Shown: piece after piece, positions 4,630 through 58,799 of the stretch
Numbering within the stretch: position 1 is the first letter of the stretch
Layout: each line of letters starts with the position of its first letter
NCBI RefSeq assembly: GCF_003473485.1
Contig: NC_053045.1
Coordinates: forward strand, 42,450,494 to 42,514,493
DNA length: 64,000 nt
From: Medicago truncatula
Taxonomy: Eukaryota > Streptophyta > Magnoliopsida > Fabales > Fabaceae
Reading direction: 5' to 3'
The notes under the pieces: generated by a model
What the model was told of the DNA's origin: nothing
Databases searched by the model: none
What the model saw: the letters and a program-made list of their open reading frames with translations, nothing else
Translations under genes and position numbers: made by a program

Positions 4630-5760
4630 TCTTTTATGATAGAAACTTATGGTCTTGAATTTTCTTTGATAATTCTCCAATCAATATCATTAATGAATGA
4701 CTTAATGAATAATTTATTCCTGGATTGGTATCTCTTCAAAGTTGATTCTTATCATTTTGATGAAGTAATGAGAATAATTTCAAGTGTAATAATCATCTTC
4801 ATCATGAGAATATTCTTTCATCAAAGTTGATAATGTTCTCATCTATATGAGAAGACAATATCTTCTTGGTCATTAACTCTGAATTATTTTGACGATGCAA
4901 TTATTCTCATAATTCATCTCGGTGATTGTACACGGTGTTTTTACTGCATTGCGTATCTTTGAGATGTTTTAGTTTAGGCATGCATGTAGTCACAAAGTTA
5001 AAATCAATCATTCTCTTGAATGAAACTTTTATGCCTTTTTCTTAAACTCTTTTAGAAACTATTTGAAGATCAATCTTGAATTTTCATATCTTGTAGATAC
5101 TCAAGATATGTAACAAAACTCAATCTGTGTTCTGTCACATGATTGTAAAAGTGATCTTGTGTACCTTTCAACTATTAACCTTCTCTTCCTTGAATTTTTA
5201 TGGCTTTGTTGAAAATCATGTGGTGACGAGGATGAATCAATTAATCATAAAAATCATCTTCTTGTAACCCATTTGTATCACTTTCATCTTAGTGGATTGG
5301 AGGGCTGCTCTCTCCCCCAGAGTAAGTCATGTTGGACCGAACTAGGTTACCATCTTGGTGTGTTTGTTTTCTTTCTTTCATTGCTTGTTTTATTGCTTTG
5401 ATTATGCTTGTGTTGATGCTTTACACTTAGTTTTGGGACTGTTTGTTGTTGTTGTTGCTTGAGGCTATTTTGTCCATTGATTACCGCTACCTTTGCTCCA
5501 CACATCTTTGTTTTCATTGGTGTGATTTTGACCGAATTCACAACAGTACTCTTCTATTGAGTATATTTATGCACTTGTAAGAGACTTCTTTCTTGTCTAC
5601 TTCTGCGAAAAGACTTAAGCGCAAACATCAGTATATCACCTTTCATAAAACTTTAGCGTTTATTCCATAAGGTTTGTTATCATTAAAATATTTATCAAAA
5701 AGATTTTTGTTTCAACAGACCCGTTCTAATAAGGTTTATTGTCTACTGAAAGCCTTGATT
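4630..5760. mobile_element. Possible LTR-retrotransposon remnant (fossil)
   Basis: The stretch about 5280-5400, with the GGACCGAACTAGGTTACC type sequence after a C-rich run, resembles the end of a legume LTR; the following leader-like DNA runs to about 5760. No second LTR, clear primer-binding site or coding domain is visible. It is at best a broken, old piece. Family undecided. Confidence 0.3.
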
Positions 5761-6037
5761 TCACTAAGAGCGAAAACATTTAAACTATTTAGGATCTATT
5801 TGGCAAGATATTTTTATGAGTTTATAACTTATAGTTTATATCTTATAAGTTTATTTAACAAAAATAGACTTTGCATGACATTTTTTGAGTTTATAATTAT
5901 AGTTTGTCTTTATAAGTATATTTAACTAGAATAGACTCCTTTGATAACCGTCAGTTTCTCAACAAGTAGCATATAATATAGGCAAATTCTATAACATAAC
6001 ATATTTTATCTCACTTACTTTAACTCTGTAATTTTAA

Positions 6038-10887: not shown

Positions 10888-11958
10888 TCAATAATAAGGC
10901 TGGTACATTCCTCCTGGGGGAGGTCTCTGCACCGGCATAGGTTGTTGCGGGTAACCATATTGTGAACCATCAGGGTATCCACCAACAGCAGTCTGAGGCC
11001 CTCTTGGTCCGGGAACAGGGCCAGGTCCAGCTACAGGCCCACCATAATGAGGAACAGGCCCAGGTCCATATCCACCAGCTGCAGGAACCTGATTACCATA
11101 AGGTTGCTGCACATAGCTATTAGGAGGAGCACCATACTGCGGCGGCATCATGGTGGGATTAGGTGGATGATAATTAACATTAGAATTATCCACCGGAAAG
11201 CCCGATGGGTTTTGACCCACGGGCTTGGGCTTTTTGTTATCAACAGCAAACTTGCAAATCACTTGATGCCCATCAACGGTTTTCATAGACTCCGCAACCG
11301 AATTCTTCGCACCCTCTTCAGTTTTGTACACAAAGAAAGCAAAACCTCTTGTTTTACCACTTGCTTTATCAAACCCTAATGGACCCTCTTCAATTTCACC
11401 ATACTTCGAAAATTCACTTAATAAACTCTCCGCTGAAACTTCAAACGGAACGTTTCCGACGAAAACCTTCCGAGATGAAACATCGCCGCCTGTGGAACCC
11501 GCCGCCGCAAGCTGTGTCACCGTCATTCTTCCATCGATTTTCTTGCTCGGCTCTTTTAGGGCTAAGACAGCGCCGTCGACATGTCGATACACAACAAAAC
11601 CGTAACCCTTAGATCTTCCGGTGGCCTTATCGAATATCACAATCGCTTCATCTAGATCACCATAGGAAGAGAAAACGGTGCGGAGTGTTTCGGTGGTGGT
11701 TTCACCGGAGAGGCCACGGACGAAGAGTTTACGGCGGGTGGTATCACGGTCGGCGACAGAGCGTACGGCGTCGAGGATGTCAGGGTGTTGGAGTGAGGCG
11801 GATTGGAGAAGGTCGAGTAGTTGTTCTTGAGTGAAAGGTTGGAGAATCTTGCGGATGTCGTCTGAGGTGAGAGCGGGGGGTATGACGGCGGCGTCGATGG
11901 ATGAGGGTGGAGAATTAGCGTCGCCGTTTTCTTCGGTTTTGCGTTTCTTGAATTCCAT
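10888..11958 (-). CDS. UBA2C: UBP1-associated protein 2C-like RNA-binding protein
   Basis: A single open exon encodes 356 residues. Two RRM domains are clear: RRM1 at about 76-150 (RNP2 KLFVRG at 77-82, RNP1 KGYGFVVY at 117-124) and RRM2 at about 163-237 (RNP2 VFVGNV from 165, RNP1 RGFAFFVY at 204-211). The amino end has a basic KKRK cluster (residues 4-7) and the helical stretch around QEQLLDLLQ seen in UBA2 proteins. The tail from about 245 is rich in Gly, Pro, Tyr and Gln. Arabidopsis UBA2 proteins are nuclear, bind U-rich 3' UTRs with UBP1, and act in stress, wounding and senescence responses. UBA2C fits better than UBA2A/B by its order of motifs and its tail. The start is the first ATG, in a good context (GCCATGG). 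A splice-donor-like GGTAATT follows the stop codon directly, suggesting an intron in the 3' UTR. Confidence 0.93.
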
Positions 11959-12059
11959 GGCGGTGGATCGTTGGGGGGATTTGGGAATTAGGGATTTGAA
12001 GCGAAAGAGATAAAGTTAACCTAGGTTTTAACAAGTGAGGCAGAACAATATCGATACTG

Positions 12060-14867: not shown

Positions 14868-14940
14868 GGGGATGTAGCTCAAATGGTAGAGCGCTCGCTT
14901 TGCATGCGAGAGGTACAGGGTTCGATCCCCTGCATCTCCA
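14868..14940 (+). tRNA. tRNA-Ala (anticodon UGC)
   Basis: A 73-nt gene folding as a full cloverleaf. The acceptor stem pairs GGGGATG with CATCTCC, with A as the discriminator base. The D arm begins TAGCTCAAATGG (A box), the anticodon arm is CTCGC-TTTGCAT-GCGAG with anticodon TGC, and the T arm holds GGTTCGATCC (B box). No intron is present. TATCAA just upstream (14860-14865) resembles the CAA motif common before plant tRNA genes. A run of seven T at 14951-14957 is the Pol III terminator. It is independent of the flanking protein genes. Confidence 0.98.
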
Positions 14941-37440: not shown

Positions 37441-38242
37441 AAACAAAACAGATTGTCTACTTTGGATGTAAGTGGAGGTTGGAATGTGAATCTCCAAATA
37501 GCTCTAAAAATAGAGATGAATAAGAGACGGAGAGAAAGAAAAGAAAGAGAGATGAAAGTAGTCGCTTAATACCAAAATTTGTCTCTAAAAATAATAAATC
37601 AACTCTCAAAATATTTAGAGAAAAATACACTCTATTACGTGGCATGCCACTTTGCTGGTCACCTCATACCCCATAGAGAATTGTTGTTTATACATTACAT
37701 AAGGCTGTGCTACACGAGTACTTTACGAAAATGCCCTTCGACAGTTAACTGTCGAAGTTTTAGTAAACCGGCGGCAGTTAACCGTTGAAGAAAACATCGG
37801 TAGTTAACTGCCGAGGAAAATGTTATAAGAACATAACGGACATAGGAGTTTCCAAAACTCCATTGTTGTGTTTTTGATTATCCTTGCTGCGATTTTGAGC
37901 AATTTGAAGCCATTCCAAGCCAATTTCAATCACAAAAACAAATAAGTTTTCTGAATCCTATTGCATTGTTGTTTTGTGGTCGAATTGTTTGTTTTTTTTT
38001 TTGTTAAATTTCGATTATATAGGTTCGATTATATTGATTTTATGATATGTTAGGATAGTTTAGGTTAGAATTGTTAGAGAACTTTTATTGAATTGTTAGG
38101 TTTAGATTTTGATGAATCGTTGTAGAATTGTTTAGGTTTAGGTGTAGGTTTTGATGATAGTTTAGGTTTAGTTTTTGATTTTATGATTTTATGGCATTGT
38201 TGTTTAGTTAGGTTTTGATCGCCATTTATTTTTAATGTAGAT

Positions 38243-38488
38243 ATGTCTCAAAATCATAATCAGGGTAACGTTCAGGGTGATGAGAAGAACAAAGAAAAAT
38301 CGCCTATGACGTGGCACGAAATTGTTTGCGATGGTTCCGAAAAAAAGAAGGGTTCGAAGGTGCCGGTGTACAATCACTCGAGGTTGAGGAGGAGCGGGAG
38401 GACATGCTATTTTGGTCCTCAACCAAAACAAGGTGCCGCAGGGATTGTAGCGGGAAACCCGATTGACTTGTGTGACGAGGATGAATGA
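38243..38488 (+). CDS. Small hypothetical protein inside the MULE
   Basis: 81 residues starting MSQNHNQGNVQGDEKNKEKS, very hydrophilic and charged, with a basic central patch (SRLRRSGRT, residues 48-56) and an acidic end (DLCDEDE). A T-rich stretch and TAG just before the ATG resemble a 3' splice site, so a leader intron is possible. No known domain. It may be an accessory or remnant MULE gene; expression is unproven. Confidence 0.45.
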   Translation: MSQNHNQGNVQGDEKNKEKSPMTWHEIVCDGSEKKKGSKVPVYNHSRLRRSGRTCYFGPQPKQGAAGIVAGNPIDLCDEDE

Positions 38489-38785
38489 ATGAATGCCTAA
38501 TTGTTTTCGATTTTTTTATGTTTTATTTTTGTGTTCTGCACATTTTGTTTGACATTATGGTACTTCGAATAAAATCGCATTTGGAATAATTTCGATTAAA
38601 CTCGCGTTTTTAATAATTGCGTATTCGAATAAAAACTAATTAAATCTAACGTGAATCCAACTAATTAAAATTGCGTAATGAATAAATAAATTCGAAAAAT
38701 GAATAAATAAGATAATTATTGTTCCATTCAAAACAAAGTATATGTTATCACATTACATTGCATTGCACATTACATTACATTCCGG

Positions 38786-39036
38786 AATGTACCTTCCAAC
38801 TGCAACAATTATCTTACCACTAAATGAGGCAAATTCAAACTTGCTAAACAGCAGGACTCCAACATCCGATGAGCATCTGCAACGATGGTATTCAAGTGTC
38901 AAAAGAATGATGTGCATTCCTTAACACTTGAATACCATTGTTCAAGATGCTCATCGCATGCTAGATTCATGCCGTTTAACAAGTTTGAATTGCCCCATTC
39001 AGAGGAAGACAATTGTTGTAGTTGGACGTTTGTACC
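38786..39036. repeat. Long hairpin 1 (arms ~120 bp, 5-base loop)
   Basis: Left arm 38786-38909 and right arm 38915-39036 are inverted copies with roughly 20% mismatches, separated by only five bases. Shared blocks include CAAGTTTGAAT, ATGCTCATCG and CACTTGAATACCAT. A transcript in either direction would fold as one long imperfect stem, as in young MIRNA-like or siRNA loci. Confidence 0.85.
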
Positions 39037-39040
39037 TTCC

Positions 39041-39355
39041 AACTCCAACAATTGTGTTACCTTTGAATGAGGTAAATTCAAACTTGCCAAGCAGCAGGAC
39101 TCCAATATTCGATCGACATTCCCAATGTTCCATTCAAAAGATTAAATTCTTGTTAGGCTGGGATTAAATGACGGTATTGAAATGTCAAAAGAATGAGGTC
39201 CATTCGTTGACACTTCAATACCTTCATTTAAACCAGCCTAACAAGAATTTAATCTTTTGACAGGAACAATGGGAATGCAGGTCGAATATTGGAGACCTGC
39301 CGTTTGGCAAGTTTGAATTACCCCATTCAAAGGAAGACAATTGTGGTAGCTAAAA
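39041..39355. repeat. Long hairpin 2 (arms ~155 bp, 5-base loop)
   Basis: Left arm 39041-39195 and right arm 39201-39355 pair over their full length, with blocks AGATTAAATTCTTGTTAGGC and GGTATTGAA. It shares outer-arm sequence (CAAACTTGC, GACAATTGT) with hairpin 1, so the two arose from one unit by duplication. It ends just before the 3' end of the minus-strand ORF. Confidence 0.85.
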
Positions 39356-39373
39356 TGTGCATTCATTCCGTAC

Positions 39374-39721
39374 CTAATGACGATCTTCTGGCGGAATCAA
39401 ACTTTTGATGATATCTTCAGTTGATCTCAGCAACGTCACCCGCATATCGATCCACTGGAACATGTTGTGCTCCCAAAAAATGCTCGTCACATTTTCGTCG
39501 TTTGTTAATTCCACCCAAGTGAATGAAACTCTCCCCTTGTCGAGCGTTGGACGTTTATACCGAAGGTGTTCCACCCTTCTTGTGTCTCTGGGGTTGACTC
39601 CTTGGTTGAATTCAGTCAGTTCATCCTTGAGATCTCTTAACGTTACACCAAGGCATCGAACCTTCAACCTCTGAGGTTCTCCGCCGTTGAATTGCGCATG
39701 AACGTCGATCCACCCAGCCAT
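39374..39721 (-). CDS. MULE-associated PB1-like/N-terminal-domain protein
   Basis: 115 residues from MAGWIDVHAQFNGGEPQRLK to the stop. The arrangement with TLRDLKDELTEF, then DTRRVEHLRYKRPT, then LTNDENVTSIFWEHN resembles the amino-terminal domain of legume MULE transposase-related proteins, which often stands alone in such elements. The catalytic part is absent. The ATG at 39721 is favoured over one 39 bases upstream, because TTGCGTAG before it looks like a 3' splice site. Function inferred from context only. Confidence 0.55.
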   Translation of the reverse strand: MAGWIDVHAQFNGGEPQRLKVRCLGVTLRDLKDELTEFNQGVNPRDTRRVEHLRYKRPTLDKGRVSFTWVELTNDENVTSIFWEHNMFQWIDMRVTLLRSTEDIIKSLIPPEDRH

Positions 39722-40493
39722 TGTTTCAAATCTACGCAATAAGAAATTAAAAACAATCAATTAAAAACTCATTCAAACATTTCATCAAACACATAATGTG
39801 CACATTATACATAGACTCTAATATTCATAAAAATAACCCTAAAATTATAAATCATATACTCTTACTAAAATAAAAAAATTAATCATATAATATAACATAA
39901 ATCATTCAACTTATGTTTAATCATATAATATATCATTAATCAACTAACATGTAATATAAAAATGATTTATAACATGTATATCTAATTAAAAATTAAAATA
40001 AAAAAATAAATATAAAACAACAAAATAATAAATAATCCTAAAATTCTAAATTATAACATAAACATCATGCAAATATTTTAACAACATTAATCAAGTAACA
40101 TCCATCCTAAAAATTAATTATAACATGTAAATCTAGTCAAAAACTAAAAAATAATAAATGTACTCAAAAAATAAAAATAAAAACATTTATAACAACTAAA
40201 ATGTAAGTTAATAGCATTATTATTACTTACTTGTTGAATAAAATATGATTTTGTTGAATACATTTGGTTGGATTTGGTTGTGTTTTTTAGAGAGATTTGT
40301 GAAAGAAATTTGAAGAAGATGAGATGAATAATGGATGAGAGAGCTTCTGCCAAATTTGTAGCAGAAGATCCTCGGCAGTTAACTGCAGCCAGATTTCTAA
40401 AACTTCGACAGTTAACTGCCGAAGGACATTTAGGTAAATTATTCGTGTGGCCCAGCCTTATGCAATGTGGGAACAACAATTGTCTACCCCATA

Positions 40494-41287: not shown

Positions 41288-44200
41288 TTAACATGCTGCA
41301 GGCCTGCACAAGAATTTTTGTTGCTGGTCATGGCATTGAACATGACATGACCTAGCTTTATCTCTCAATTCTTGGAATGCTCTCATTGTATCCGCATCAA
41401 AACCGCTTGCAAACTGCCAAAAATAATAGCACATTACTCAGAGTGGTCCTTTACATTGCTCAGAATGGTCCTTTTACATTAGTTGTATAGGCATCATTTT
41501 TTACTAAGTTCAAAAATGTAGACAAATTTTTACCTGATGTACACGGAAAGCAAATCTGACTCCTTGGACAATGAGCTCTTCTTCTTCAGGCCCACCTCCA
41601 ACAGTTTCAAGCTCAGCAGAAACTCTCTTCATATACTTCATAGCCAATTTTACAGATGCCAGCTTTATCTATAAGCACATTGCAAATACAAAACATAAAT
41701 AAGCTAACCAATATTTGAGATTTCACCTCACCATGATTAAATATGAAACAAAAATTGTACCAAAAAAAAAATTATGGTAATTAAAGACAAAAGTGCACGA
41801 CTTGTTTTTTCTTGTAATAATTTTAAAGATAAGCATATGGCCATTTTAATTTGTATAGTTCCCTTCAACTTCAAAGTTCCTAGCATGCAAAGAGAATCTC
41901 CTCTAAAACGACGAAGTAGACACAAGCAAATGGGTCCTAATAGATTGTGGAGATCTAGGGTCACATGTGTCAAATATATTGAAAAATGATAACACAGAAA
42001 ACAGAAGTTGAAATTTATCAGCAAAGTTAACAATTGTCTTGTCCTTTTGCTGTCAGCAGCTTTTTTTTTTTGAGCAAATGCTGTCTAATATATTGTGCAA
42101 CAAGAAACTTTATCATGGCAACTGTTGACAAGTTGGTCAATACTCAATAGAAGATTGATATTTACGAAAGGGCCCATTCAACATCAACCAATAAAATAAC
42201 ATCAATTCATTCACTTAATGATCCTAAATATAATAACTGGTGGATTCAGCCTAGATAAGCATAATTAACGTCTGCGAAAACTTATAAAAAAATACTAATA
42301 AACAGTGATAAAAGAACTCAATTCAAATTACCTTGGTGGCATAACCGCTATCAAGCAACCAATCTACAGGTATTTGGAAGACTTTGAATCTCTTTGTTGC
42401 TGACTCTCTCATTCTAGAAATGTTGTAAACCCCATGTTCTAATCTGTTGGAACATTTAAAAACAAAAGTGTTAAGTAGTTTTCTATACATTAATGTTTAA
42501 TTCACATGTTTATCTTAAATTTGAGTTTCATTTCATTTTAAATAACATACATTAACTTCTAATGAAGTTAGGTGTTATATTCTTATCAAAATTGAAGTTT
42601 CATTATTCATGTATTTACTTTTCATGCATTCATTTTTATGAAGTTAGGTGTTATCTTCATATCATACCAATATGAAACCTCAAATAAGGTACTAGCTAAA
42701 TTTATCAAGAAAGTTCACAAAATCACATACTTCTCAAAGAGAGTTTGCATCTTCTTAAGAGCTGGACCACATAGCTGCCGAGGATCGTCGCGGAAAGATG
42801 AAGCCTCAGATTCTAGCTTCTTGAGATCACAATATCCAAATGCCGCTTCACGCATAGCATCAGCCTTCTGTTCTGGCCAATCAAAGTGTTTGAGCACCGC
42901 TCTTTCATCCACCTATAACACCAAAAATAGAAAAAGACCGTAAGCATAACTTACCTCTTTTTTTGAAAATTTTGATGGAAAAAAACAAAAATGACTAATG
43001 GACACATATACCCCGCGTGACACCTGTTACTTTGGTTGAGTAGATAATTAATTCAATTCAGACCCAAAATTGTGGTTAGTTCTACCATATGTTTCTTAAA
43101 AAAAAAAACAAAAATCAACCACATGGTTAACAACAATTTTCAATGTGGTCTATACTGACGGTCTACTCAACTGAATTAACCACATTTTTTGCATATGCTT
43201 AATCAGGAGTCGTAGGTATACGAAAAAATGGGTGTCATGAAACATTAAAATGGGTGTCATGAAACATTATGATAAATAAATACGTAGACAAGATAGTTAA
43301 TTAGTAGAAACGGTACCAAATAGGAGAGTTCGTCGTCAAGCCATTTAACAAAAGGCACCACATCTTCAATGTCCGTAAATGCTGCACCTTCCACTTCTTT
43401 AATCAAGTATCTAATAAAATCTCCTTGTGTTTCTACATCAGTTTTTATCTGTAAATAAACAATGATCATTAAGCAGACAATGCCTCAAATACAGTTAATA
43501 GAAAACCCTAAATTGACGCTACCCAACCAGTTTAATACTATTAAGCTTTAATCACTGTTACCAGTAGTAAATAACTAGTACTTCCTCCTTCCCTTTCAAA
43601 ATAAGTGTCATTTTAGCTAATTGCACTCAGATTAAGGAATTGAATAAAGTAATCAAATGTCATAGCAATTTTACTAAAATAACCTCTTTTATAAGAAAAA
43701 GACAAACTTAAAAGTTGCATTGAAAATTGTGTGAAAGAGAAAACGACACTCATTTTAAAACAATTTTTTTCTAGAACGACACTCATTTTGGAATGGAGGG
43801 TGAATAAAAATGATATAAATCAAGTACTACTTTATTTAAACAATATTTATTTGACTTTATTTAGGTTTGGTATATGGAGAATCTTTTCTTACATGAATGA
43901 CCAAAATGCCATACTTTTAGGTATATTTACGATTTTGGATATTAAAATTCGAATCAGATTACTGTCTTATCTACGAAAGAAAATCAAATTCAATTAAATT
44001 CAAATTAAAGCAATTAAAGCGACTTGACATGTCAGCAGACACTGACGTAAATGACAGTGTCAAAATAGTAAATTACGCAACGAAACTCACGTGAACTTAC
44101 CGCTAGTAAGTGAGTAGAACGGTTCTCGATTTCTCCGATCATGTCACGTGCGTTCGCCGTCGCCGGAACCTCCGCTGCCGTACCGGAGTTAGATTCACGA

Positions 44201-45303
44201 CGTGTTTGTGAGTCTCTCCGCATCAACGAATGATAAAACTCTACCACCTCCGGTACTTTTCTTACCTTCGCCGGAGGCATTTTTCCTCCCTTCGGCGGTG
44301 GTGGAGGAGGCGGAGGAGCCGCTGCTGCTTTTGACGCAGGTTTACGTGGTGGTGGAGGAGGTGGAGGTGGTGCTGCTGTCTTCGCTGGTGGAATCGGTTG
44401 CAAAATTTCTTGCTCTGTTTCGCCATTGTTGTTCTCCCCAACGGAACTGCTCGACAGTGACGATGATGACGACGGTGAAGAAGACGACGGCTTGGGCGGT
44501 GGATTAGGAACCCTAGGAACTCTAGATCTGACGTTAACGTTCAAAACTGAGTCGTGACAATCGGCGAGTTCCTCCGAATTACAACGAGAGTGACGTGGCT
44601 TTTCAGTTTCAGAAAACTCTCTTTTCAAATCAACACTTTCATTCTGCTTCTGCATCACGATTCCATGATCCGACATGGTTTTCTTCAACGTTTTCATAAG
44701 ATTCGACTTCACAGAAACTTCACCAATCCCCTGAAACCTCTGTGAAGTAGAAAAATGTTCTTCACTATGTAACGACGCCGTTTTCTTAAGTACGGTAACT
44801 TCATCTTCCAACGCTTTCAGTTTCCTTTCACTATCTATTCGTTCATCTTCCATTAGCTGCTTCAGTTCCTCCAATTCTTTCTTTAGCTTCTCGTTCTGTT
44901 CTTCAGCTTCTTCCGCTCTTTTTCTGTTTCTTTGAATCTCAGTTTCCCTAACTGTTAACTCGTTTTCTAAAACCGGAACAATGGCGATGGACTCTTTAAG
45001 TAGTTTATGCTCGAGAAGTTCTGTTTTCAAACGAGACTCGCTTTCACGAAGCTCCTCCACCAGACGGAGAAGTTCTGTTCCGTCTGGTGGACGAGGCTGT
45101 ACTTGAGCGGATGAGCGCGGGAAGTGGAAGCCGATTCGCGAGAATGAGGATTTGTGAGAGGAGGATTTTGCGGAGGAGGTGGTGGTGGAAGGTGAAGGAG
45201 GTGGTGGTTGTTTCTTCTTCTGCGGTGGAGGAGTACTGTGTGCATGCGCCGGTGACGGCGACTTGGAGAATCCCATTGCTACCTTAACTTTACCGGCAAC
45301 CAT
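41288..45303 (-). CDS. CHUP1/IPGA1-like coiled-coil, proline-rich protein
   Basis: Six exons, 44101-45303, 43317-43448, 42731-42912, 42332-42443, 41534-41668 and 41288-41413, join in frame to 629 residues. Order of parts: a basic start (MVAGKVKVAMGF), a Ser/Pro-rich region, a coiled coil at about 75-175, a Ser-rich linker, two polyproline tracts (about 311-319 and 330-337), then the conserved CHUP1 carboxyl domain from about 345 (VVEFYHSLMRRD, ENRSTHLLAIKTDVETQG, FVKWLDDELSYLVDERAVLK, HFDWPEQKADAMREAAFGY). CHUP1 family proteins bind actin or microtubules; CHUP1 itself anchors chloroplasts, while the shorter IPGA1 branch controls microtubules and cell growth anisotropy. The length (IPGA1 about 640, CHUP1 about 1000) and the absence of the CHUP1 membrane anchor favour the IPGA1 type. 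Introns 1-5 all have GT-AG ends. Confidence 0.9.
43581..43801. mobile_element. Stowaway-like MITE in CHUP1-like intron 1
   Basis: Ends CTTCCTCCTTCCCTTTCAAA and ...TTTTGGAATGGAGGGT are inverted repeats, with AAGTGTCATTTT / GACACTCATTTT just inside. TA precedes the left end (43579-43580). It lies between exons 1 and 2 and is about 220 bp long, without coding capacity. Confidence 0.7.
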
Positions 45304-45337
45304 TAGAGAAGAGTGAAAAGGGTTTGTGTTGTTGTGT

Positions 45338-45346
45338 TTAGGGTTT
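45338..45346 (-). promoter_or_regulatory. telo-box in the CHUP1-like gene leader
   Basis: AAACCCTAA on the minus strand, 35 bases upstream of the ATG. Telo-boxes are common in promoters and leaders of plant genes active in dividing tissue. A single short motif; may be chance. Confidence 0.35.
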
Positions 45347-45603
45347 GTGTTTGAAACTCATGAGATGAGAGTGATGAAAGTAACAGAAGACGACGTCGTT
45401 TTCTTTGGGTTGATAAAGGAAACTGGTACTAAAATTAGAGGAGGAGAATAGGATGGTGTAAAGAGTGGAGTGAGTGAGTGAGTGAGGAGAGAAAGATATT
45501 GAAGGCACAGTTAACGAGGAACGGTCTTCTCTTTTCTTCTTAGAGAGTGAAAAAAGGGATATTAAAATATTTGGGGTATTGTTTTGAAAAAGCACACCCT
45601 TCT

Positions 45604-57304: not shown

Positions 57305-58799
57305 TTAATGAGCACGCATGATTAGAACATCATCATTATGATCATCCATTAACTTCCAAGTACCATCAGATTGTTGAACCATACCCTTATTCTCAACTAC
57401 CCTCCAATTCTCAGGAATGTGATATTCATCTTTTAAACCATCATTACTTTTGTTTAATAGTGCAATGTCACGATTCACCTCTAAATTGAACCCTCCTTTA
57501 CTTCCTTGTGTTCCTGCAATTCCATGCAAGTAAACCTCCATGTTATGTGCACTAACCCCACTCTTCAAGTACTTAGATTCTTCGGTGTCGATTTCTAATT
57601 CCTCTCCAACTTTGTAATAGAAAAACGTGAGACTTTTTGGAACAATATCATTTTCATTTCGAACAAACAATGCACTCAAATCTTTGTGGTCAGAGAAAAT
57701 CTTTTGAAAGTAAGAATTTCCAACACGAGGTGCACCAAATGCAAATGTTGTAACTGGACATGCTTTTTGAGGTTGCTCTTTTGGCATGTTGAATTTATTA
57801 GCAACTATATCCACTGAACTTATAGTTGCAAGTGCACCACCCAAACTGTGTCCAGTTACAGTTATGCTAATTTCTTCATTCTTGTATAGCTCCACAAGTC
57901 TGCTGATCTCGTTCAGGACCTTAATATTTGTCACATTACAAATATTAGAAATCCAAACTTCCCATCATATTCATATCATATAAGAATATCATTCTCTATT
58001 ATTAGTGATTAATTAATAACACAAAAATAAATAACTACCTGTTTTCTAGCACTAGAATCAGCTGATGGTAAACCTGAGTTTTCAGATGTGTAAAGGGAGT
58101 AAAATCCGTTGTGTATTTGTACATTTGATTTAGGACCGAATATTAGTGGTGCAGGATCCAAATCAATGTTAAAATTTTGAACCCACTCAGAGCCCTGGAT
58201 TGTTCCTCTCCAAACAACGACTATGTCCCTCCTCCCCAAGGCCTCCTTAGCTGTTGCATATAATTGTAAGTTAGTTATAAGATTTACAAATTTAATTTAC
58301 ATAAAATCGTATATAAAATATGTATCTTACACTTATCATACTCAATTTTGTTTCTATTTCTATCATACATCTCAACATTACCTTCGTCAGTGGCAACTGC
58401 AACGTACCCTATCCAATTTGATTCCAAACTCCAAGCATCCTTTGAAAATATTGAAGTTAAGAGAAACGCTGCACTATCACTTGCTTTGGAAGTTGCATAC
58501 AAATATTTGGTCACAGAATACTTATAAGGATTACCTTCTTCCAAATATACTTTGGAAAAGAAATCCTTTTTAGAATAACGACAATTACCTGCATACTTAG
58601 ATGCTTTTTCAAAGTTGAAAGCATCATATGTAGCTTGAGCAAATTGTCCATAATGTAGTAAATACTTACGTAGGTCAATATGTAAAGGTTCCAATAGACC
58701 TTTCCACTTACTTTTCCCACTAAGTTCTCTCCATGTTTTTGCTATGCTACCCATATCTTTTTTTGAAGGAATGCTACCCATATCTACTTTCTTCCTCAC
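57305..58799 (-). CDS. Class II phospholipase A1 (PLA1-IIgamma/DSEL-like lipase)
   Basis: Exons 58331-58799, 58039-58250 and 57305-57919 join in frame to 431 residues, the usual size of plant cytosolic PLA1-II enzymes. It begins with helical sequence typical of the family (TWRELSGKSKWKGLL) and has no plastid presequence. SNWIGYVAVATDEG precedes intron 1; GRRDIVVVWRGT opens exon 2. The lipase class 3 box ITVTGHSLGGALA gives the nucleophile S252; D318 (NENDIVPK) and a His in SAHNMEVYLHG (H352 or H359) complete the triad. The enzyme should release sn-1 acyl groups from glycerolipids; Arabidopsis DSEL acts on storage lipids during seedling establishment. The motif DMGSI occurs twice near the start (residues 6-10 and 15-19), so translation may begin at M1, M7 or M16; M16 fits the family best. 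The exon 3 acceptor AAG is non-preferred but valid. Confidence 0.92.

Follow-up and report, generated by a model that had tools for sequence, protein, structure and literature searches.

The window, a 64,000-nt stretch of Medicago truncatula DNA, contains a 2,809-bp element (37676–40484) that is a non-autonomous MULE without a transposase. Inside it lie two tandem foldbacks that match the published microRNAs miR5554 and miR2592, so that, judging from the sequences, 'microRNAs' catalogued as separate families look like products of one transposon. Our preferred reading, to which we give a probability of roughly 0.7, is that this is a recently active element whose hairpins are diced to 21–22-nt RNAs acting mainly on the family's own transcripts and DNA.

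The limits of the element follow from an exact 9-bp target-site duplication (TSD), TACCCCATA, found on both sides at 37667–37675 and 40485–40493, and they agree with the terminal inverted repeats (TIRs) and with alignments of other copies. The TIRs are 118 nt long and 82% complementary (37674–37791 pairs with 40369–40486). Within the element, the left TIR occupies 37676–37791 on the forward strand, with TCGGCAGTTAACTGCCGA-type palindromes, and the right TIR occupies 40369–40484 on the reverse strand. A search of open full texts for TIR palindromes found no Medicago paper with these words. A preliminary description of this DNA had already noted the TSD and matching TIRs and had called the element a MULE. 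Both points hold, the class being borne out by the TSD of about 9 bp, the long TIRs and a TIR type held in common with a transposase-encoding locus. The largest open frame in the element itself is 128 aa, and it thus lacks the transposase of an autonomous MULE.

One locus taken from the list of MULE-domain matches, L054, proved to be a MULE that encodes a transposase and has TIRs homologous to those of the element. It has a 995-aa frame with the MULE transposase domain PF10551 (E 6.8e-27), its TIRs are 79–83% identical to those in the window over 113–127 bp, and it is flanked by the exact 9-bp TSD ATAGAAAAG. All matches between L054 and the element better than 1e-5 are TIR-type sequence, so neither the hairpins nor the ORFs are pieces of the L054 transposase gene. 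The shared ends suggest that L054 or a similar transposase may move the element in trans. The TIRs also resemble a catalogued microRNA precursor. The right TIR matches MIR2629 (RF04063) at 40358–40429 on the forward strand with 61.0 bits, against a gathering score of 60, and the left TIR falls short of it on either strand, with 53.6 and 43.2 bits. The L054 TIR matches MIR2629 at 66.6 and 62.3 bits; no match at the gathering score was found in L030, L031 or L032.

The M. truncatula genome (430 Mb, 42 contigs) was searched with two double-hairpin queries. When the double hairpin of the window was used, the best 40 of 418 first-look candidates were scored, the window included, and these cover at least 564 of the 570 query bases at an identity of at least 91%. 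For a sister subfamily, with a query from L030, the best 40 of 420 candidates were scored; none overlaps the first 40, and at least 19 of them, counting the query, are at least 98% identical. The two non-overlapping sets amount to at least 80 distinct full-length double-hairpin copies, a high-copy family by the count that the preliminary description had left to be made. In all 20 copies fetched by hairpin identity, the alignment goes past the hairpins and takes in more of the element, in some cases the whole of it. A TSD of 8–9 matching positions out of 9, with both terminal motifs, was present at independent sites in seven of these 20 and a 6/9 TSD in one; the other 12, in which a terminal motif was not located, are unscorable. 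The family is recently active, and the TSDs at independent sites show that it is mobile. Two copies, L043 and L046, look mosaic between subfamilies.

We also reached 25 loci through the reverse-strand ORF of the element (5 plus 20, the latter 20 from outside both hairpin lists). Both hairpins are present in 17 of the 25 loci of this non-random sample, uninterrupted in 12 and with insertions in five (L031, L032, L038, L039, and L047 as extended by L055). The remainder comprises a single hairpin in L052, partial hairpins in L033, L042, L044, L045, L050 and L053, and no hairpin within the 1 kb fetched at L048; as the case of L047 makes plain, hairpins may lie outside a short fetch.

Hairpin 1, a MIR5554-type foldback, has its outermost pair at 38785–39039 and contains 102 pairs. 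Hairpin 2, a MIR2592-type foldback, has its outermost pair at 39043–39349 and contains 135. Each closes on a 5-nt loop, and the two back-to-back long foldbacks that had been described in advance are thus confirmed. The RNA MFE of 38740–39400 is −337.9 kcal/mol; 20 dinucleotide shuffles average −147.9, and none of them folded as well (z = −21.7). A two-hairpin fold, and with it a stem-loop precursor, is found in 32 of 33 aligned full-length copies, the exception being L040, which folds as a single domain. Sub-threshold Rfam matches in the hairpins (MIR5649, mir-2513, MIR4371 and others) lay far below their gathering scores and were disregarded.

The two hairpins had been said to share their outer arms and to differ near their tips. 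The outer arms are indeed shared, but the tips are 80% alike too; the real difference is a segment of about 45 nt that is present in both arms of hairpin 2 (left half at 39114–39160, partner at about 39233–39275) and in neither arm of hairpin 1. This hairpin-2-only segment varies in both arms between hairpin-2 subtypes. The four arms are homologous to one another, and the two hairpins have small differences between left and right arm in common. The pair is therefore explained by a single inverted duplication and a later tandem duplication.

The evidence for an RNA product comes from PMC3160423, on M. truncatula Jemalong A17 shoots, whose Table 2 prints mature miRNAs with star-strand counts. 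It reports sequenced miRNA and miRNA* for the sequences considered here, and the star-strand counts for miR5554, miR2592a, miR2592bl and miR2592bm/bn are, in order, 134/3, 28/1, 43/1, 918/294 and 530/160. Of these, miR5554a-c is exact in nine fetched loci and has one mismatch in the window, at 38932–38953 (−) in hairpin 1, and miR2592bl is exact in the window at 39068–39089 (−) in hairpin 2 and in four other loci. Across the window and the fetched loci from L009 on, miR2592a is exact in three loci and miR2592bm/bn in two. None of 14 other Table 2 miRNAs tested, a set that leaves aside the conserved miR156j, 167b, 168c, 172b/c, 408 and 2111u/v of the same table, had a match at up to two mismatches, whether in the window or in a fetched locus.

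These matches are concentrated in the element throughout the genome. All 12 exact miR5554 sites lie in or beside it, nine inside scored hairpin copies and three at the hairpin position beside matches to the reverse-strand ORF. All eight exact miR2592bm/bn sites lie in hairpin 2 of the sister subfamily; at six of them, newly fetched, all 21 bases pair in the hairpin-2 fold, and L031 and L043 contain the other two. With one mismatch allowed, miR2592bm/bn has 35 sites, with placement in the element verified for the eight exact ones. Thirteen of 15 exact miR2592bl sites were placed in or beside the element (seven in scored copies, three beside matches to the reverse-strand ORF and three beside matches to the forward-strand ORF). 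The reversed-pattern control gave no site for any of the three sequences. Hairpin 1 is therefore a MIR5554-type locus and hairpin 2 a MIR2592-type locus. Since published mature sequences match many copies, this evidence applies to the family rather than to this one copy. The proposal in the preliminary description that the double foldback is a small-RNA source is upheld at that level, with miR2592 and miR5554 matching the hairpins exactly in the family and miR2592bl doing so in the window copy.

PMC4212123 counted miR2592 as the largest miRNA family of M. truncatula, with 64 genes, and dropped it with an accepted precursor stem-loop at fewer than 20% of genomic loci, regarding such cases as most probably siRNAs. 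That verdict, as given in the accessible text, fits poorly with long hairpins at exact sites, possibly because the precursor criteria differ. Its setting aside of miR2592 as probable siRNA is in keeping with a view of the element as an inert passenger, in which the foldbacks are diced merely as long dsRNA and roleless TE siRNAs have been mis-filed as miRNAs. We regard this as a real possibility, though at clearly less than even odds. The star-strand counts printed in PMC3160423 argue against it, as does the persistence of both hairpins across subfamilies in the loci chosen by ORF, including those with insertions.

Sequence change in the hairpins bears on the same question from both sides. The covariation analysis used 33 aligned copies and the 234 pairs of the window structure; its shuffles ignore relatedness, and many of the changed cells represent one subfamily split. 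In this set 92.6% of cells pair, compared with 91.0% in shuffles, two-sided changes occur at 30 of 234 pairs (21.5 shuffled) and in 113 cells (35.5 shuffled; 18–38 with partners slid), and the covariation score is 0.082 (0.060 shuffled). Further pair types showed no excess in the 33 copies, at 102 compared with 101.5 in shuffles. In the 21 closest copies, pairs are broken in 275 cells and compensated in seven, and this preponderance of pair-breaking change favors the inert view. So does the rate of change in the arms: their distance from the window to L029/L030 is 0.168–0.174, near the ORF synonymous distances of 0.119 and 0.173, so the arms look approximately neutral. An apparent conservation of the hairpins relative to their flanks (p-distance 0.056–0.083 in hairpins vs. 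0.13–0.43 in ORFs and ends) was set aside because the 20 copies had been picked by hairpin identity. Singleton changes at C/G are raised in the hairpins, with 52 transitions and 50 transversions in 4,676 site-copies; deamination-type changes pointing to methylation show no clear excess there.

Against an inert role, the arms of hairpin 2 change together. Among 10 copies chosen from the 33, the two hairpin-2 arms resemble each other (0.149, 0.142) more closely than they do their counterparts in the other subtype (0.223 left, 0.178 right). All 12 arms belonging to the second subtype form one group, with a support of 0.998. Hairpin 1 showed no such joint-arm pattern in the same 10 copies. The pattern is most simply read as arm-to-arm copying in hairpin 2; selection may act as well but need not be invoked. 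The concerted change and the extra segment found in both arms or in neither both look like such copying, and together with the mosaic-looking copies they lend something to the idea that the palindromes work at the DNA level, extruding cruciforms or aiding gap repair or copy-number increase, with RNA as a by-product. Such events explain how palindromes are kept, not why, and the published 21–22-nt RNAs show an RNA product; we consider a DNA-level role improbable.

The preliminary description had further supposed that the RNAs act on the gene from which the arms were copied. This part was not borne out, as no arm sequence was found outside the element family. For neither the arms nor the ORFs was a parent of the Pack-MULE kind found in a genome search dominated by element copies, in which a diverged parent could be missed. 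The arms have sub-threshold matches to Pfam LRR_3 (E 0.025 and 0.012), and an NBS-LRR parent was considered and rejected. What recurs in the 12 LRR_3 loci compared is a core of 14–16 residues at the LRR_3 motif, with a best E of 0.004. One longer gapped match, in L057, is weak (34 columns, 29% identity, E 0.11), and nucleotide matches to these loci are at most 17 bases, except one of 27 at 78%. At up to three mismatches miR5554 has 154 genome sites, compared with one for the reversed control; among the 100 near matches listed, one (C2:43008390) is by eye unlike the family variants.

An origin of MIRNA genes by inverted duplication is a known model (PMC10004981), and PMC3160423 predicts a miR5554 target, 'polynucleotidyl transferase, Ribonuclease H fold'; both would fit arms copied from a host gene whose 21–24-nt products regulate that gene. 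With no parent found, an LRR_3 likeness that does not extend beyond its core, and listed miR5554 near matches that by eye nearly all look like family variants, we find such regulation improbable and favor RNAs directed mainly at the element family itself.

The hairpins are flanked by the two short, facing ORFs that had been described. The forward-strand ORF, of 81 aa, lies at 38243–38488. The reverse-strand ORF has 115 aa from its first ATG (39374–39724) and sits in a 128-aa open frame (39374–39760). The latter has a dN/dS of 0.47 (95% bootstrap 0.34–0.65, 24 sequences; shifted frames 1.00 and 0.71), and the former a dN/dS of 0.34 (0.16–0.59, 21 sequences; shifted frames 1.18 and 0.66). These ratios are signs of purifying selection on both ORFs. 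In-frame stops occur in 7 of 24 reverse-strand and 10 of 21 forward-strand sequences, and gaps against the window copy in 10 of 24 and 16 of 21, so many copies have decayed; 100 of 150 scored genomic matches to the forward-strand ORF have no in-frame stop. No Pfam family was found above cut-off for either ORF and nothing in PDB for the reverse-strand one; the forward-strand ORF of one copy has a sub-threshold match to DUF7231 (E 0.031). The idea that the reverse-strand ORF is an N-terminal piece of a MULE transposase, suggested by a resemblance, was dropped, with no Pfam or PDB match and a best E of 0.49 to L054. A helper or anti-silencing role of the small proteins is speculation.

Both ORFs point at the hairpins, and the reverse-strand stop is about 25 nt from hairpin 2. 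This arrangement is what one would expect if the hairpins kept two convergent transcripts apart or brought them to an end. That the ends of plant mRNAs are formed by polyadenylation argues against such a device, and we consider it very improbable.

Maize MuDR has two convergent genes between TIRs, and Mu killer makes long-hairpin RNA against a MULE from one rearranged locus. The element resembles MuDR in its two convergent genes between TIRs, but has no transposase. It resembles Mu killer in its long hairpin, but its hairpins are present in many copies and do not derive from the L054 transposase sequence. Plant miRNAs are known to have arisen from MITE and Mutator elements, in M. truncatula as well (PMC10004981), and in those MIRNA genes, as here, the foldback of a DNA transposon is the small-RNA precursor. 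TE-derived MIRNA loci are thus a known kind, and the element is a variant with two tandem internal foldbacks, distinct from its TIRs, within 2.8 kb that also hold two constrained ORFs. Amplified MULEs with multiple TIRs (PMC3310237) likewise keep extra inverted repeats; theirs are tandem TIRs, whereas the foldbacks here are internal and of other sequence. The MuTAnTs of M. truncatula (PMC4486113) similarly comprise non-autonomous MULEs and an element with a complete transposase ORF. MuTAnTs target TA microsatellites, whereas one of eight element TSDs (ATTATATAA; window plus seven copies) is TA-rich, so the two may differ in this respect.

Elsewhere, miR2592 has been called abundant in alfalfa, with 119–1742 reads across libraries (PMC6311939), and is listed among salt-responsive miRNAs (PMC9064118); family members are mentioned under stress there and in PMC8369265, and the accessible part of PMC3707012 does not mention miR2592. 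The mature mtr-miR2592 and mtr-miR5554 sequences of PMC3160423, exact matches to hairpins 2 and 1 respectively in the element family, are presented there as separate families, and the accessible part of that paper does not describe them as neighboring hairpins within a single MULE. No link between miR2592 and a transposable element was found in the open literature searched; most subscription journals and supplements lie outside it, and the link may be published. The preliminary description knew of no element with this layout. The open literature searched likewise yielded no such layout, but the small RNAs had already been catalogued as miRNA families.

On the reading that we prefer, promoters in the TIRs would drive convergent transcription of both genes, running on through the hairpins. 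Dicer-like enzymes would cut the hairpins into 21–22-nt RNAs, which would then be loaded. The main targets would be transcripts and DNA of the same family, limiting the element rather than regulating a host gene. A bolder version, which we offer as tentative and on balance unlikely, is that the element carries a built-in, selected silencing module. Arm-copied foldbacks would feed 21–22-nt RNAs back on the element, TIR RNAs would reach the transposase partner, and the two constrained micro-proteins would serve a transposase-less parasite that would also be the source of a large share of the species' annotated 'miRNA genes'. If that were true, the element would in effect act as a self-limiting hyperparasite on a MULE.

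With miR2592, miR5554 and MIR2629 all assigned to a single MULE family, reports of miR2592 abundance and stress response have to be read differently. A further question is posed by the conservation of two small proteins in an element that has no transposase. The family offers many natural replicates for studying how the foldback of a transposon turns into a MIRNA gene or falls short of doing so.

In alignment A1, two copies of the window MULE's family, L043 and L046, appear mosaic, with hairpin 1 from one subfamily and hairpin 2 from the other, a pairing that suggests recombination or conversion between elements. Another copy, L032, carries approximately 1.2 kb inside hairpin 2 (4645-5878), flanked by the hairpin halves. 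L056, a relative of about 3.5 kb, has one hairpin; two further palindromes in it, at 641-888 and 1353-1653, do not match the window element.

Elsewhere in the window, a tRNA gene was identified at 14868-14940 (Rfam RF00005, 67.9 bits). Three long minus-strand ORFs, all named by eye, encode a putative RNA-binding protein (10888-12015), a putative proline-rich coiled-coil protein (44032-45357) and a putative lipase with a GHSLGG motif (57305-58799).

Within the window MULE, the base of one hairpin-1 arm (39004-39019, GACAATTGTTG) resembles the extreme TIR end at 40473-40488, the two being alike at 15 of 16 positions.

The subterminal TIR palindromes of these MULEs are matched on both strands by Rfam family MIR2629. 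Matches fall in the left TIR subterminal palindrome (37731-37802) and, at gathering score, in the right TIR (40358-40429) and a TIR of the transposase-encoding locus L054 (3021-3114). The MIR2629 entry looks like transposon-end sequence.
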